This document shows, in pieces, positions 431 through 4,734 of a stretch of 64,000 nucleotides of DNA. Every line of letters starts with the position of its first letter. The first letter of the stretch is position 1. The notes beneath the pieces are model-generated. The model did not search any database and was not told the origin of the DNA. It saw only the letters and a program-made list of their open reading frames with translations. Source of the DNA: Bacteroidota bacterium (GTDB lineage Bacteria > Bacteroidota > Bacteroidia > Chitinophagales > Saprospiraceae); NCBI GenBank assembly GCA_019136675.1, contig JAGVTV010000078.1:1-64000 (forward strand), given 5' to 3'. A program made the position numbers and the translations under genes.

Positions 431-572
431 ATATGCAAGTTAGCAAGCCTGATCTCACTAAAACTCCTAAAAAGACTACGGCATAATGATCCGCTAATAG
501 CGGAATCAGCCTATGGCACTTATTCCGTTTCCTTTTTGGAGTTTTGATCAGCCTTGCACTGAATAAGCATAT
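431..572 (+). repeat. Structured hairpin leader, copy 1
   Basis: This 142-nt segment folds end to end. Outer pairs are ATATGC 431-436/GCATAT 567-572, GCAAG 443-447/CTTGC 553-557, CTGATC 449-454/GATCAG 546-551, AAACTCC 461-467/GGAGTTT 538-544 and AAAAAG 469-474/CTTTTT 532-537. Inside, ACGG 478-481/CCGT 525-528 and ATAA 483-486/TTAT 520-523 enclose two side hairpins, CCGCT-aat-AGCGG (491-503) and GCC-tat-GGC (509-517). The core 475-532 recurs almost unchanged at 930-986, while the outer stem differs in sequence yet still pairs. It ends 14 nt before the ATG at 587. It may be a 5' UTR regulatory RNA or a DNA hairpin used in mobilisation; the data do not decide. Confidence 0.75.
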
Positions 573-586
573 AAAATATATAGATC

Positions 587-820
587 ATGATTGATTTTCC
601 TACATTTCAGGCAGGGCCAGATGGCTCTTGTGTTTCTTGCAGCTCACCAGCATTAGGCATTTATAAGCAGGTGAGTAGATATGCTTTTCAGCGTCATGTA
701 CGTCGCAGATTTCTACTGTGGTCACCATCACCAGATATCAGGGTTTATCCACTTCCATGTGGCTGTTGTATTTGGGTGCATAAGGATGGCAGTAGATTCG
801 TCACCTCGTTACCTTACTAG
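587..820 (+). CDS. Orphan 77-aa protein, paralogue of the 1038-1271 product
   Basis: I do not recognise the family. The 77-residue product aligns without gaps to the 77-residue product at 1038-1271, with 28 identical positions. Shared blocks are SRYAFQ-x-H-x-RR (residues 30-40) and RVY-x-LPC-x-C-x-x-WV (52-64), and both end in LP plus an aromatic residue. Matching residues often use different codons (Arg AGA versus CGT, Ala GCT versus GCC, Phe TTT versus TTC), which indicates selection on the protein. There is no signal peptide or membrane segment. The conserved LPCxC could bind metal or form a disulfide, but only two cysteines are shared there. The gene follows the hairpin leader 431-572; no clear terminator is seen after it. 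Confidence 0.65.
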   Translation: MIDFPTFQAGPDGSCVSCSSPALGIYKQVSRYAFQRHVRRRFLLWSPSPDIRVYPLPCGCCIWVHKDGSRFVTSLPY

Positions 821-889
821 CGTGAGAGCTGATATGCAGCCATAAAATAGGCATCTACTGCATACGTGGAAGACCATAATAAATTTTAC

Positions 890-1022
890 TATGCAAAGTT
901 AGCAAGGGTTTTTATTTAAATCCCAAAAGACTACGGCATAATGATCCGCTATGGCGGAATCAGCCTACGGCACTTATTCCGTTTCCTTTTGGTCTTTAAT
1001 AACCCATGCACTTTTTAGCATA
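890..1022 (+). repeat. Structured hairpin leader, copy 2
   Basis: Second copy of the element at 431-572. Pairings: TATGC 890-894/GCATA 1018-1022, GCA 902-904/TGC 1007-1009, GGGTT 906-910/AACCC 1001-1005, CCAAAAG 923-929/CTTTTGG 986-992, ACGG 933-936/CCGT 979-982, ATAA 938-941/TTAT 974-977, and side hairpins CCGC-tatg-GCGG (946-957) and GCC-tac-GGC (963-971). The core 930-986 differs from copy 1 only in one arm tip and a single T/C change in a triloop. The stems outside the core have diverged with pairing kept, for example copy 1 CTGATC/GATCAG against GGGTT/AACCC here. It ends 15 nt before the ATG at 1038. Confidence 0.75.
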
Positions 1023-1037
1023 TTAAAATTTATCATT

Positions 1038-1271
1038 ATGGACAGTATTCCACGTATTTCGTCAGGCTCCCAGTCAGGTTGTAGCCATTTATCTCAGCTT
1101 CCCATCACAGAGCATTTACCTTTGTCTCGTTATGCCTTCCAGCATCATATTCGCAGATCTACATTAGCCCATACTACTTTGCATGGAGTCAGGGTCTACA
1201 GGCTACCATGTCATTGCTTTGTCTGGGTTTATCCTTCAGGTGAGCGAGAGCTTGCACCATTGCCCTTTTAG
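1038..1271 (+). CDS. Orphan 77-aa protein, paralogue of the 587-820 product
   Basis: Family not recognised. It has the same length as the 587-820 product and about 36% identity, with the same SRYAFQ-x-H-x-RR and RVY-x-LPC-x-C-x-x-WV blocks. I chose the ATG at 1038 rather than the in-frame ATG at 951. The upstream start lies inside the hairpin leader, and the paralogy begins exactly at 1038, giving 77 residues in both proteins. The TAG stop sits in the loop of the terminator at 1262-1284. The product is basic in its middle, cytosolic by appearance, and has no membrane segment. Confidence 0.65.
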   Translation: MDSIPRISSGSQSGCSHLSQLPITEHLPLSRYAFQHHIRRSTLAHTTLHGVRVYRLPCHCFVWVYPSGERELAPLPF

Positions 1272-1899: not shown

Positions 1900-2655
1900 C
1901 TACATTCCGGAGACGTTCACGATCGTTAGGGCATTGAATGCTCCATTTTTCAAAGGGTACATCTGACCATTCACTTCTTGATAAAACTCCATTCCCATCA
2001 CCAAAAACAAAGGATGTGTACTATTGGCAGTTACGGCATTCGAAAGAGTAATTGCGGCAGTAGCGGTATTTCCTATAGCCAAAACAGCACTTTCCTTGGC
2101 ATCAATTACATACGTTTCATTCTCAAAATCAATTTCTGCACCTGCAGTTTCGATTTTAAAGTGTGTTGCCCCTGATGGAGCTGCAATCATGTTACCAGGC
2201 ACAAATGGCGGTACAACCACTTCCAAAGTTCCCGCAGTTCGGTCGATGTTTGTGGTATAAGGAGCATAAATGGTATTTTGAAGTTTACCTTTTAAGTTGA
2301 AATCAAACCCAACCAAAAGTTCAGCTTCACCATCTATTACATTCCTTTGCCCTCTTACATTTGTGGTATCCCCTTGGATCACCTTCACCATTTCAGCAGT
2401 CAAACGACCTACCATTCTGTTGTCCGCAGAATTTTGTAAGATCGTTCTGAACGCAGTTCTTAGCAATCTACCAGCTTTACCAGCAGCTCCAAATTCCGCA
2501 CCATTCTCCCTTGTCCTTTGAAAATTAGGATCATTAGCAATTCGATCAGCTTCGATTCCGCCTTTTTCTCTTGCAAGGTAGCCATCTTGTGACTTGTAAA
2601 AAGTTATACCACCAAGGGTACCATTCAATTTGATTAATCCCGATTGACGAGCCAT
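1900..2655 (-). CDS. Conserved Bacteroidota protein of unknown function (251 aa)
   Basis: The 251-aa product begins MARQSGLIKLNGTLGGITFY and has no signal peptide or transmembrane helix. The N-terminal part (K-x-NGTLGGITFYK, then a charged stretch with FQRTRENGAEFG) looks like a family I know from many Bacteroidota genomes, where it has no assigned function. The C-terminal two thirds is Val/Thr/Ala-rich and probably beta-structured. It lies 28 nt downstream of the SNase-like gene on the same strand and may be co-transcribed with it. A structural role (phage- or secretion-like particle) is possible, but nothing in the neighbourhood supports it. Confidence 0.6.
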   Translation of the reverse strand: MARQSGLIKLNGTLGGITFYKSQDGYLAREKGGIEADRIANDPNFQRTRENGAEFGAAGKAGRLLRTAFRTILQNSADNRMVGRLTAEMVKVIQGDTTNVRGQRNVIDGEAELLVGFDFNLKGKLQNTIYAPYTTNIDRTAGTLEVVVPPFVPGNMIAAPSGATHFKIETAGAEIDFENETYVIDAKESAVLAIGNTATAAITLSNAVTANSTHPLFLVMGMEFYQEVNGQMYPLKNGAFNALTIVNVSGM

Positions 2656-2683: not shown

Positions 2684-3193
2684 TTATAAAGCATTGCACC
2701 CTCGGCAATATCTAAATCTATACTTTGCATTGTACTCTCTGAAATGCCAAGGTGGACACACATTCTCTTTTCCACACTCCCACAACCCAAGTTTTCTATC
2801 TGATGCTCTTTTCATCACTTGTTCCAGCTTTTTATTCCTGTCATAATTGATGTAGTGCCAAGCCCAACCATTTCTGATTAAAAAAGAGTCAAGACTTCTT
2901 TTACCAATCTTTATTCTCCCAAGTTCCCTATCATACAAGTCTATTTTGACATATTCATAAGTCACATACTTTCCAAGAATCAGATCCCTAACCTTTGCCT
3001 GAGCTTGCAATCCCCAGCTTTGATTGAGTTCTGGAGCATCCACATTAAGCAATCTGACAGTCTTCAAACTTTCATTAACTTTCAACACATAAGTATCTCC
3101 ATCCTTCACTTGCATAACTCTTGCAGATACTTGTGAAATACCGTCAAAAGAGATCATCAGTACCAATAAAAAAGCTACTATTTTGCATTTCAT
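2684..3193 (-). CDS. Secreted thermonuclease-like (SNase domain) nuclease
   Basis: A 169-aa SNase-family protein with an N-terminal signal peptide (residues 1-21, ending GISQ). Expected catalytic positions are visible: DGDT (31-34), Arg47 and Asp52 with Glu55 in RLLNVDAPE, and Arg93 in YDRELGRI, so Ca2+-dependent phosphodiester cleavage is likely. The product would act outside the cytoplasm. The Cys-rich tail (CGKENVCPPW and YCRGC) could form disulfides or bind metal. I chose the ATG at 3193 over one 18 nt upstream because the upstream codons overlap the promoter box at 3198-3205 and the signal peptide begins at MKCK. Confidence 0.85.
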   Translation of the reverse strand: MKCKIVAFLLVLMISFDGISQVSARVMQVKDGDTYVLKVNESLKTVRLLNVDAPELNQSWGLQAQAKVRDLILGKYVTYEYVKIDLYDRELGRIKIGKRSLDSFLIRNGWAWHYINYDRNKKLEQVMKRASDRKLGLWECGKENVCPPWHFREYNAKYRFRYCRGCNAL

Positions 3194-3197
3194 ATGG

Positions 3198-3205
3198 CAA
3201 AAATA
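3198..3205 (-). promoter_or_regulatory. -7 box TATTTTTG for the SNase gene
   Basis: On the minus strand TATTTTTG (TAnnTTTG) ends 4 nt before the ATG at 3193. As with the gene at 1300, this implies a leaderless or nearly leaderless mRNA. Confidence 0.5.
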
Positions 3206-3302
3206 TAGCACATTTTACTTGTTTTAAAACAGCTACTTCCGATATTTCCGATAAGTCCACATTATGCCATAAAACACACTTTTACCACTCATTTATTCTT
3301 CG

Positions 3303-3539: not shown

Positions 3540-3658
3540 ACCACACAAAAGCTGTAGCCTGTGACACAGCAACACCCTACTCCATACTTAACTTTTTACT
3601 TTCTCATCTTTTCCAATAGTTGTTCTTACTATCTCAAAGTACTCTTTACCATCCTAAG

Positions 3659-3779
3659 CAGGTACTAAGGTAGGTTCGATCTGCATATATGCAAGGTCTG
3701 CCTATCGGCTGGCATCTCGTCATGCTGACGAGACGATCCACCTTGCATTTATGCATCTCTTCACCTGGCATTGTACCTG
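3659..3779 (+). repeat. Structured hairpin leader, third type
   Basis: CAGGTAC (3659-3665) pairs with GTACCTG (3773-3779). Inside, the 16-nt arm 3682-3697 pairs with 3740-3755 with one mismatch. The head carries GCC-tatc-GGC (3700-3709) and TCTCGTC-atgct-GACGAGA (3715-3733). The sequence is unrelated to the leaders at 431 and 890 in its core. The layout is similar: a long interrupted stem containing TATGCAAG, a two-arm head, then an AT-rich run ending ATCATG at the start of a small gene 50 nt downstream. Confidence 0.6.
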
Positions 3780-3829
3780 ATAGGTTGGCATGGAGTCAGC
3801 CACATTTTTTACTTTATAAACATTTTATC

Positions 3830-4138
3830 ATGAGTAGTATTACTAAGTTATTTCCGTTAGGTTGTGTTTATATGACATCTGGAGTAGATTCAGTTTGTCA
3901 TCAGCATCCATCATTCTTTCAGTTCATTGCAGAATGCCTTACATCTCACTGTAGTGGTGATTTTGGCACCTTGTGTCATAGTGATATCGCCACTAATCAG
4001 GTAGCCATTCAGCACGGGGGTCGTGTCTTTTCATCGTATGCCATACCATCAGAGATTGATAGTTGTGGTGATAAGTTATGGGTCATCACCGAGTCAGATC
4101 GGTCATCTACTACAGTTTTGTTTCCAGGGGAGTATTAG
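3830..4138 (+). CDS. Plasmid/ICE-type conserved small protein (102 aa)
   Basis: The 102-aa product has the pattern SGDFG (residues 42-46), a HGGRVFSSY block (64-72), then KLWVITESDRSSTTVLFPGEY at the end. This matches a family of small uncharacterised proteins (SGDWG ... N-x-x-A-x-x-HG-x-R-x-x-S-x-Y ... WIITE-x-DRS-x-T-x-LLP-x-EY) common on plasmids and integrative elements next to anti-restriction genes. Function unknown. The ATG at 3830 was preferred to an in-frame start at 3689 because the latter lies in the hairpin 3659-3779 and the homologous part begins later. The stop codon is in the loop of the terminator at 4128-4151. An unusually Cys/His-rich N-terminal half is specific to this copy. 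Confidence 0.7.
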   Translation: MSSITKLFPLGCVYMTSGVDSVCHQHPSFFQFIAECLTSHCSGDFGTLCHSDIATNQVAIQHGGRVFSSYAIPSEIDSCGDKLWVITESDRSSTTVLFPGEY

Positions 4139-4151: not shown

Positions 4152-4206
4152 ATACGATAATAATAAGTATAATTGTTAATTTTTTATTAACTAAGATATT
4201 TAATTG

Positions 4207-4214
4207 TACCTTTG
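4207..4214 (+). promoter_or_regulatory. -7 box TACCTTTG for the Panacea operon
   Basis: TACCTTTG matches TAnnTTTG, 26 nt before the ATG at 4240. It would drive the two-gene toxin-antitoxin-like unit. Confidence 0.6.
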
Positions 4215-4239
4215 CGGTCTTTATAAGAGTTATAGTATC

Positions 4240-4734
4240 ATGTCAATAATTCAATTAGCTAAATATGTCGTTCTTTATTGTAATTTAAATGGGATTGATA
4301 TATCTCATTTGAAACTACAAAAGTTACTTTATTACATACAAAGTTGGCATTTAGTGTATTTTGAAAAGGAATTACTGTTTAGCGATACACCAGAAGCATG
4401 GTTAAACGGTCCTGTTTATACAACTGTATATTCTGATTATTTTCATAAGCAAGGTTATAAAATGAATGATCTTATTGTTTTGGATCAGGACAATTCAAAT
4501 CTTGAGAAAGAGTATTCTGAGCTAAGTAACAAATTAGCAGATAAAGCAGCATTAGTTGACAAAGTATTATTAAAATATTCAACATTGACTGCAGAAAAGC
4601 TAGTTTTATTGACACACTGTGAAATGCCTTGGAGCAAAGCAAGAGAAAAGTGCGAAGACATGACATGTAGAGAGCCAATATCTATTGATGACATGTATTC
4701 TTATTATTCTAGCTTAATAACTAATAAAGCTTAG
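4240..4734 (+). CDS. Panacea-domain (DUF4065/GepA/SocA-like) antitoxin
   Basis: The 164-aa product has the Panacea/DUF4065 signature near its N-terminus: A-x-YVV..., then ISHLKLQKLLYYIQSWHL (residues 26-43), followed by AWLNGPVYTTVYSDY (59-73). The domain is known from the SocA proteolytic adaptor and from PanA antitoxins that neutralise many unrelated toxins. The ATG at 4240 starts the conserved MS-I-IQLAKY segment; an in-frame TTG at 4204 would overlap the promoter. The partner gene begins 14 nt after the stop, the spacing expected of an antitoxin-toxin operon. Confidence 0.85.
   Translation: MSIIQLAKYVVLYCNLNGIDISHLKLQKLLYYIQSWHLVYFEKELLFSDTPEAWLNGPVYTTVYSDYFHKQGYKMNDLIVLDQDNSNLEKEYSELSNKLADKAALVDKVLLKYSTLTAEKLVLLTHCEMPWSKAREKCEDMTCREPISIDDMYSYYSSLITNKA

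Follow-up and report, generated by a model that had tools for sequence, protein, structure and literature searches.

What is the role of a structured element that stands, in two copies with closely similar cores, ahead of two paralogous 77-aa genes in a Bacteroidota contig? A first-pass annotation of the window (the whole stretch of 64,000 nt analysed here) had placed hairpins at the two positions listed in Table 1, and both were found to be real there, with strong folds. Folded as RNA, they reached z-scores of -6.3 (copy 1) and -5.1 (copy 2), and none of 200 shuffled sequences was equally stable when the minus strand was folded as DNA. Whichever strand is folded, both hairpins far exceed shuffled sequences in stability.

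Conservation and fold of the two hairpins

The two cores align with 55 identities, 2 mismatches and 1 gap, against 28 of 77 residues shared by the proteins, in agreement with the initial claim that the cores are better conserved than the genes behind them. A two-arm head and compensatory outer stems had also been described, and both are real. Covariation, whose absence had been named as an argument against the element, is present: in a 21-sequence core alignment, 37 cells were changed on both sides, compared with 15.7 in shuffles, and these compensatory changes fall in the first arm, which is variable, and in the core pairs furthest out. The genome to which the window belongs holds only these two copies of the core, and the contig starts 430 nt upstream of copy 1.

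Table 1. Features of the hairpin loci in the window, with proposed roles.
Feature	Position	Strand	Observations
Hairpin copy 1	431-572	-	DNA fold z -7.8; covariance-model match of 73 bits; proposed role as folded minus-strand DNA
-7 box, copy 1	435-442	-	TAACTTGC, TAnnTTGY type; proposed; off consensus
-33 element, copy 1	468-471	-	TTTA (consensus TTTG); proposed; linear spacing to -7 box 25 nt
Core of copy 1	474-532		GACTACGGCATAA...TTATTCCGTTTCC, two arms; common to at least 122 sites; alignment A2
Template-arm spacer, copy 1	539-557		19 nt; proposed
77-aa gene A	587-820	+	ORF; family of 14 sequences; proposed transcription from copy 1
Hairpin copy 2	890-1022	-	DNA fold z -6.4; covariance-model match of 81 bits; proposed role as folded minus-strand DNA
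-7 box, copy 2	894-901	-	TAACTTTG, exact consensus; proposed
-33 element, copy 2	924-927	-	TTTG; proposed; linear spacing 22 nt
Core of copy 2	929-986		Common to at least 122 sites; alignment A2
Template-arm spacer, copy 2	992-1010		19 nt; proposed
77-aa gene B	1038-1271	+	ORF, 28/77 identical to gene A; proposed transcription from copy 2
Second hairpin	3660-3802	-	TTG-N19-TACCTTAG at base, boxes at 3692-3694 and 3665-3672; promoter geometry like that of the core hairpins
102-aa gene behind second hairpin	3830-4138	+	Family also behind G007 copies L203, L205 and L206

Distribution of the core

At least 122 distinct sites in Bacteroidota carry the core (CTACGGCATAA...TTATTCCGTTT), most of them in elements that are conjugative or mobilizable. 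When genome contigs were scanned with the 18-mer CTTATTCCGTTTCCTTTT, at least 119 stretches were returned; the 122-site set required the 5' half of the core, and a few loci from the window's own genome, its relatives and viral contigs were added. According to their record titles, these sites belong to Bacteroidota or to unclassified bacteria, with Flavobacterium, Chryseobacterium, Sphingobacterium, Mucilaginibacter, Pedobacter, Dyadobacter, Sediminibacterium and Dysgonomonas among the genera represented. Of 395 genomes drawn from across the phylum, 21 had matches to a covariance model, and covariance model R1 found none in eight genomes of other phyla with chance 18-mer matches. The 18-mer matches in Paenibacillus, Hungatella, Treponema and other non-Bacteroidota were rejected, as they are not accompanied by the 5' core. 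Among close relatives, G053 has the same two-copy locus as the window, and G004 has three copies, the first of which precedes a DUF6943 gene and not a 77-aa gene. A further match in G053 (C52) was dropped because it is not a hairpin copy, and weak BLAST matches to the hairpin in other relatives (E 0.005-0.1) were excluded. Neither the hairpin nor the 77-aa protein had a match among PLSDB plasmids, and the hairpin had none among phage records, so that the distribution is drawn from genome contigs; in IMG/VR, two contigs carry true copies.

No family in Rfam 15 matched the hairpin at the gathering threshold (the best relaxed match, E 0.82, is irrelevant), and the core sequences were not found in the open-access literature. 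The initial statement that no described family has this layout thus holds against Rfam and the open literature, and the hairpin family, widespread in Bacteroidota mobile DNA, is apparently undescribed.

Gene context of the hairpins

Neighbouring ORFs were clustered and representatives scanned with Pfam and NCBIfam, integrases and excisionase-like proteins being named by eye. The core sits upstream of ssb, DUF932, ParB-like, DUF6943 or 77-aa genes, or near MobC/relaxase genes, and the neighbour families comprise MobC_2, PF03432 relaxases, DUF3408, SSB, DUF932, PRTRC, DUF5712 and T4SS coupling proteins. SSB is the first plus-strand gene at 11 sites, at 94-175 nt from the core, and DUF932 and ParB-like genes are likewise linked to hairpins. 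In G443, three hairpins in the same direction precede a ParB-like gene, a DUF932 gene and a small ORF, respectively, and genes for SSB, DUF6876, DUF5712 and a coupling protein follow, all sharing the hairpin direction. Adjacent plus-strand genes are present in the SSB, DUF932, DUF6943 and 77-aa types and absent in the DUF3408 types. The protein partner of the core varies, and none is fixed. The hairpin had at first been paired with the 77-aa genes, with the expectation that its matches would always lie ahead of that family; the association is real but represents one case among a wider set of conjugation-linked genes, the core preceding many other families across Bacteroidota.

Short-armed hairpins with the same core, two or three per element and about 2-4 kb apart, were observed in the Flavobacteriaceae elements L197 (G443), L198 (G415) and L199 (G174). 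They precede ParB-like and DUF932 genes, and some carry TAnnTTGC, not TAnnTTTG.

The cassette-like array of hairpin-ORF-hairpin-ORF and the frequent proximity of relaxase genes would suit an origin of transfer, an IS end or a cassette recombination site. We find such an identity scarcely credible, however: there are several copies per element, each preceding a gene, a promoter box on one side only (see below) is unexpected for an oriT or an IS end, and the tyrosine integrases present look like those of element ends. Among the protein clusters, part of which were scanned with Pfam, no transposase or integron integrase was recurrent as immediate neighbour, and the core does not look like a known IS end, a possibility raised at the outset, no transposase recurring beside it. 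Integron attC sites are also single-strand hairpins alternating with small ORFs; unlike them, the Bacteroidota hairpin precedes each ORF, has a conserved internal core, occurs in many element types and has no integron integrase seen adjoining it. The idea of integron cassettes was dropped given the ssb, DUF932 and relaxase contexts.

A promoter-like signature on the minus strand

In Bacteroidota, the -7 box of sigma-A promoters, TAnnTTTG, is accompanied by TTTG at about -33 (PMC7366714; PMC9723704), although F. johnsoniae data did not show the -33 motif (PMC7366714); in Flavobacterium psychrophilum, TAnnTTGY corresponds to motif SM5 (PMC9723704). Such a -7 box, directed out of the hairpin base, is present in the left arm of the hairpin when this is read on the minus strand. 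The exact TAnnTTTG was present in 59 of 121 left arms (minus strand) and in 0 of 121 right arms (plus strand), compared with a mean of 10.3 and a maximum of 19 in dinucleotide shuffles of the left arms, counts that overstate independence because the 121 sites are related. The box is retained across types whose outer stems otherwise differ.

Along the linear sequence, TTTG and the box are separated by anything from 19 to 43 nt, and in most sites by a distance outside 17-23 nt. When each minus strand was folded with DNA parameters, the spacing measured along the template arm of the predicted fold was 18-20 nt in 71 of 94 scored sites. The -7 box is partly paired in most predicted folds.

The box might instead be an ordinary double-stranded promoter of the gene on the left, with the hairpin as its operator or attenuator. 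Some IME types do have a minus-strand ORF (f6) that starts left of the hairpin, and the linear spacing of the Flavobacterium type is about 22 nt. Nevertheless, most other types have the boxes too far apart on the linear sequence, neither Pfam nor NCBIfam contains a match to f6, and the left neighbour in the 77-aa and DUF6943 types is a plus-strand gene ending about 100 nt away, to which the transcript would be antisense, all of which makes this explanation highly improbable.

A structured 5' RNA leader or cis-regulatory RNA, transcribed from an upstream double-stranded promoter, would account for the strong RNA folds, the compensatory changes and the constant position before genes, and the triloop region can form a C(UNCG)G tetraloop on plus-strand RNA. 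However, the stems show no excess of G.U, the downstream genes are unrelated and some neighbours antisense, the promoter box is on the opposite strand and there is no Rfam match, so we judge an RNA leader decidedly unlikely. Unique 1x1 stem mismatches numbered 7 for G.T and 6 for A.C, a small sample in which G.T is about as rare as A.C, which argues against RNA on either strand. The one-arm box, the spacing in the fold, this similar rarity of G.T and A.C and the relaxase orientation described below all favour a minus-strand DNA hairpin over an RNA leader. Of the options offered by the first-pass annotation, a DNA hairpin used for mobility fits best, while a riboregulator, a toxin-antitoxin RNA and a guide RNA found no support; its functional-RNA proposal is at odds with the lack of G.U bias, the opposite-strand promoter box at the base and the variable protein partner.

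On the minus strand, 91 of 97 sites close the mini-hairpin as C(GNA)G, with an outer pair that alternates between C-G and G-C. As a discriminator between RNA and DNA the triloop fails, since it reads C(UNCG)G on plus-strand RNA and C(GNA)G on minus-strand DNA.

A second hairpin with the same geometry

The second hairpin in Table 1, for which the DNA fold of 3640-3835 gave a z-score of -6.5, has no similarity to the core. Its layout, with a spacing of 19 or 20, recurs in G053 and four times in G007, and five related copies in G000, G053 and G007 lie ahead of one and the same protein family wherever the ORF is complete. These copies are homologous and thus represent one further case of the geometry. 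In a scan of viral contigs for this class, 19 pattern matches were obtained, none of them with promoter geometry.

Orientation relative to relaxase genes

The orientation of 68 hairpins was compared with that of the nearest PF03432 relaxase on the same contig. Among pairs more than 3 kb apart, 26 of 29 had the same orientation (p=1.5e-5, uncorrected for relatedness). Near pairs fall into two blocks: one with the relaxase to the right of the hairpin and in the same orientation (n=27), and the Flavobacterium type with MobC/relaxase, in which the relaxase lies to the left and in opposite orientation (12 of 12). Relaxase operons enter last on F and RP4. If they do so here, the same-orientation pattern would imply that it is the hairpin's minus strand that is transferred; the Flavobacterium block is in conflict with minus-strand transfer, unless the oriT lies elsewhere in these elements.

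In Flavobacterium loci such as L085, L097, L103 and L124, the MobC/relaxase pair is inverted relative to the hairpin, and the neighbours f6 and DUF3408 keep their place in several loci.

A putative promoter in single-stranded DNA

We consider it fairly probable that the hairpins are single-stranded DNA promoters of Bacteroidota conjugative and mobilizable elements, working like Frpo of the F plasmid. On F, Frpo is reported to be a stem-loop that rebuilds the -10 and -35 boxes upstream of ssb and drives early expression in the recipient (PMC9849209; PMC11541004). The proposal is built on sequence, predicted fold, spacing, strand asymmetry and gene context, from which we infer recognition by RNA polymerase and its sigma factor, transcription, the identity of the transferred strand, priming and a role for the core. 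The one-arm box, the spacing in the fold, the similar rarity of G.T and A.C, the relaxase orientation at a distance, the C(GNA)G triloop, the conjugation-gene context, the second hairpin with the same geometry and the Frpo precedent argue for it.

According to this proposal, the minus strand, when single-stranded (as the transferred strand would be in the recipient), would fold into the hairpin, whose arms would rebuild a double-stranded sigma-A promoter: TTTG (-33) would be paired, TAnnTTTG (-7) would lie within or next to a weakly paired bubble at the base of the hairpin, and the spacer would measure about 19 nt along the template arm. Transcription by RNA polymerase would begin at this base and continue onto the single strand, through the adjoining plus-strand gene, so that 77-aa, ssb, DUF932, ParB-like and other genes could be expressed before second-strand synthesis. 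For most copies the distance between the boxes is too great in double-stranded DNA, and there the promoter would be silent. Priming of the second strand could be a further use of the RNA, and would account for copies with no plus-strand gene directly downstream.

Several findings count against the promoter proposal. About half of the sites are without an exact TAnnTTTG, and both boxes of copy 1 are off consensus (TTTA, TAACTTGC). In the Chryseobacterium/Sphingobacterium type, the right-hand gene, DUF3408, is on the minus strand. No PF03432 relaxase was found near the checked 77-aa loci, including that of Sediminibacterium sp. C3. Finally, a promoter would not require a core as invariant as this one; one possibility is that its partner is a host-wide binding protein.

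The hairpin could be solely a single-strand initiation site (ssi/sso), its core being bound on the transferred strand by a host primase, PriA or an element protein to prime the second strand, with the boxes secondary. A core that is nearly invariant across very different elements, as expected for the binding site of a host-wide protein, and the many copies with no immediate downstream plus-strand gene are in line with this, and the title of Masai and Arai (1997) itself assigns both promoter and priming roles to Frpo. Initiation alone nevertheless predicts neither a TAnnTTTG confined to one arm, nor the 19-nt folded spacing, nor the steady placement 14-175 nt before SSB, DUF932, DUF6943 and 77-aa genes, and we hold it unlikely. 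Known single-strand origins, such as the sso of ICEBs1 (PMC4595007), and primase-type ssi of plasmids resemble the Bacteroidota hairpins as strand-specific hairpins of conjugative elements that are conserved between elements, but the hairpins described here carry promoter-like boxes and directly precede genes.

The Frpo/ssi sequences of F, ColIb-P9 and related plasmids (Masai and Arai 1997; PMC9849209; PMC11541004) share several features with the promoter that we propose: a single-stranded DNA stem-loop that rebuilds both promoter boxes (in our case as predicted), a location ahead of ssb and further small genes, an orientation that follows the gene, and several copies per element. They differ in their boxes, TTGACA/TATAAT in Frpo/ssi and TTTG/TAnnTTTG in Bacteroidota; compared by description, the Bacteroidota hairpins are further set apart from Frpo by a conserved two-arm core, their ICE/IME-type elements and another phylum. 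The likeness is one of apparent function, as distinct from demonstrated membership of the Frpo family. In the literature searched, single-stranded DNA promoters have so far been described mainly in Proteobacteria plasmids, and the leading-region survey PMC11541004 and its 2026 follow-up contain no word beginning with "Bacteroid".

The chances appear evenly balanced that this is a phylum-wide, independently evolved system of single-stranded DNA promoters, in which at least two unrelated hairpin classes have converged on the -33/19-nt/-7 arrangement and mark the first-expressed genes. If so, the 77-aa family, DUF6943, DUF932 and the 102-aa family would become candidates for a role in anti-defence or establishment. 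With a signature that can be searched for in Bacteroidota, the earliest-expressed genes of conjugative elements could be flagged, transfer polarity could be approached, and candidates for anti-defence functions could be picked out in a phylum that is dominant in gut, soil and water communities. A puzzling structured "leader" would thereby become a directly testable mechanism.

Organization of the 77-aa loci

The usual order in loci of this type is hairpin, DUF6943, hairpin, 77-aa gene (once or twice) and a convergent gene for a protein of about 250 aa. The 77-aa gene A has no relative in Pfam, NCBIfam, PHROG, PADLOC or PDB, and AlphaFold2 modelling of the family (mean pLDDT 67) gave no meaningful fold match. 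In the window, the convergent gene (1900-2655, minus strand) encodes a 251-aa protein (MARQSG...) that matched nothing in Pfam, NCBIfam, PHROG or PADLOC and is convergent to 77-aa genes in 33 hairpin sites. In Sediminibacterium sp. C3, the locus adjoins ORFs that by-eye annotation likens to McrB/McrC and helicase-type defence genes.

Further along the window lie genes for an SNase-domain protein (2684-3211, minus strand) and a SocA/Panacea antitoxin-like protein (4204-4734, plus strand), which suggests a mobile-element remnant or an insertion hotspot extending up to about 5 kb. Ahead of their first hairpin, the DUF6943/77-aa loci also share 0.5-0.9 kb of conserved sequence that is probably non-coding (L074:4130-5020, L035:1170-1668, L042:435-1284 and others). 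This region contains a long inverted repeat, AACATAATG...CATTATGTT, and is a possible oriT or element end.
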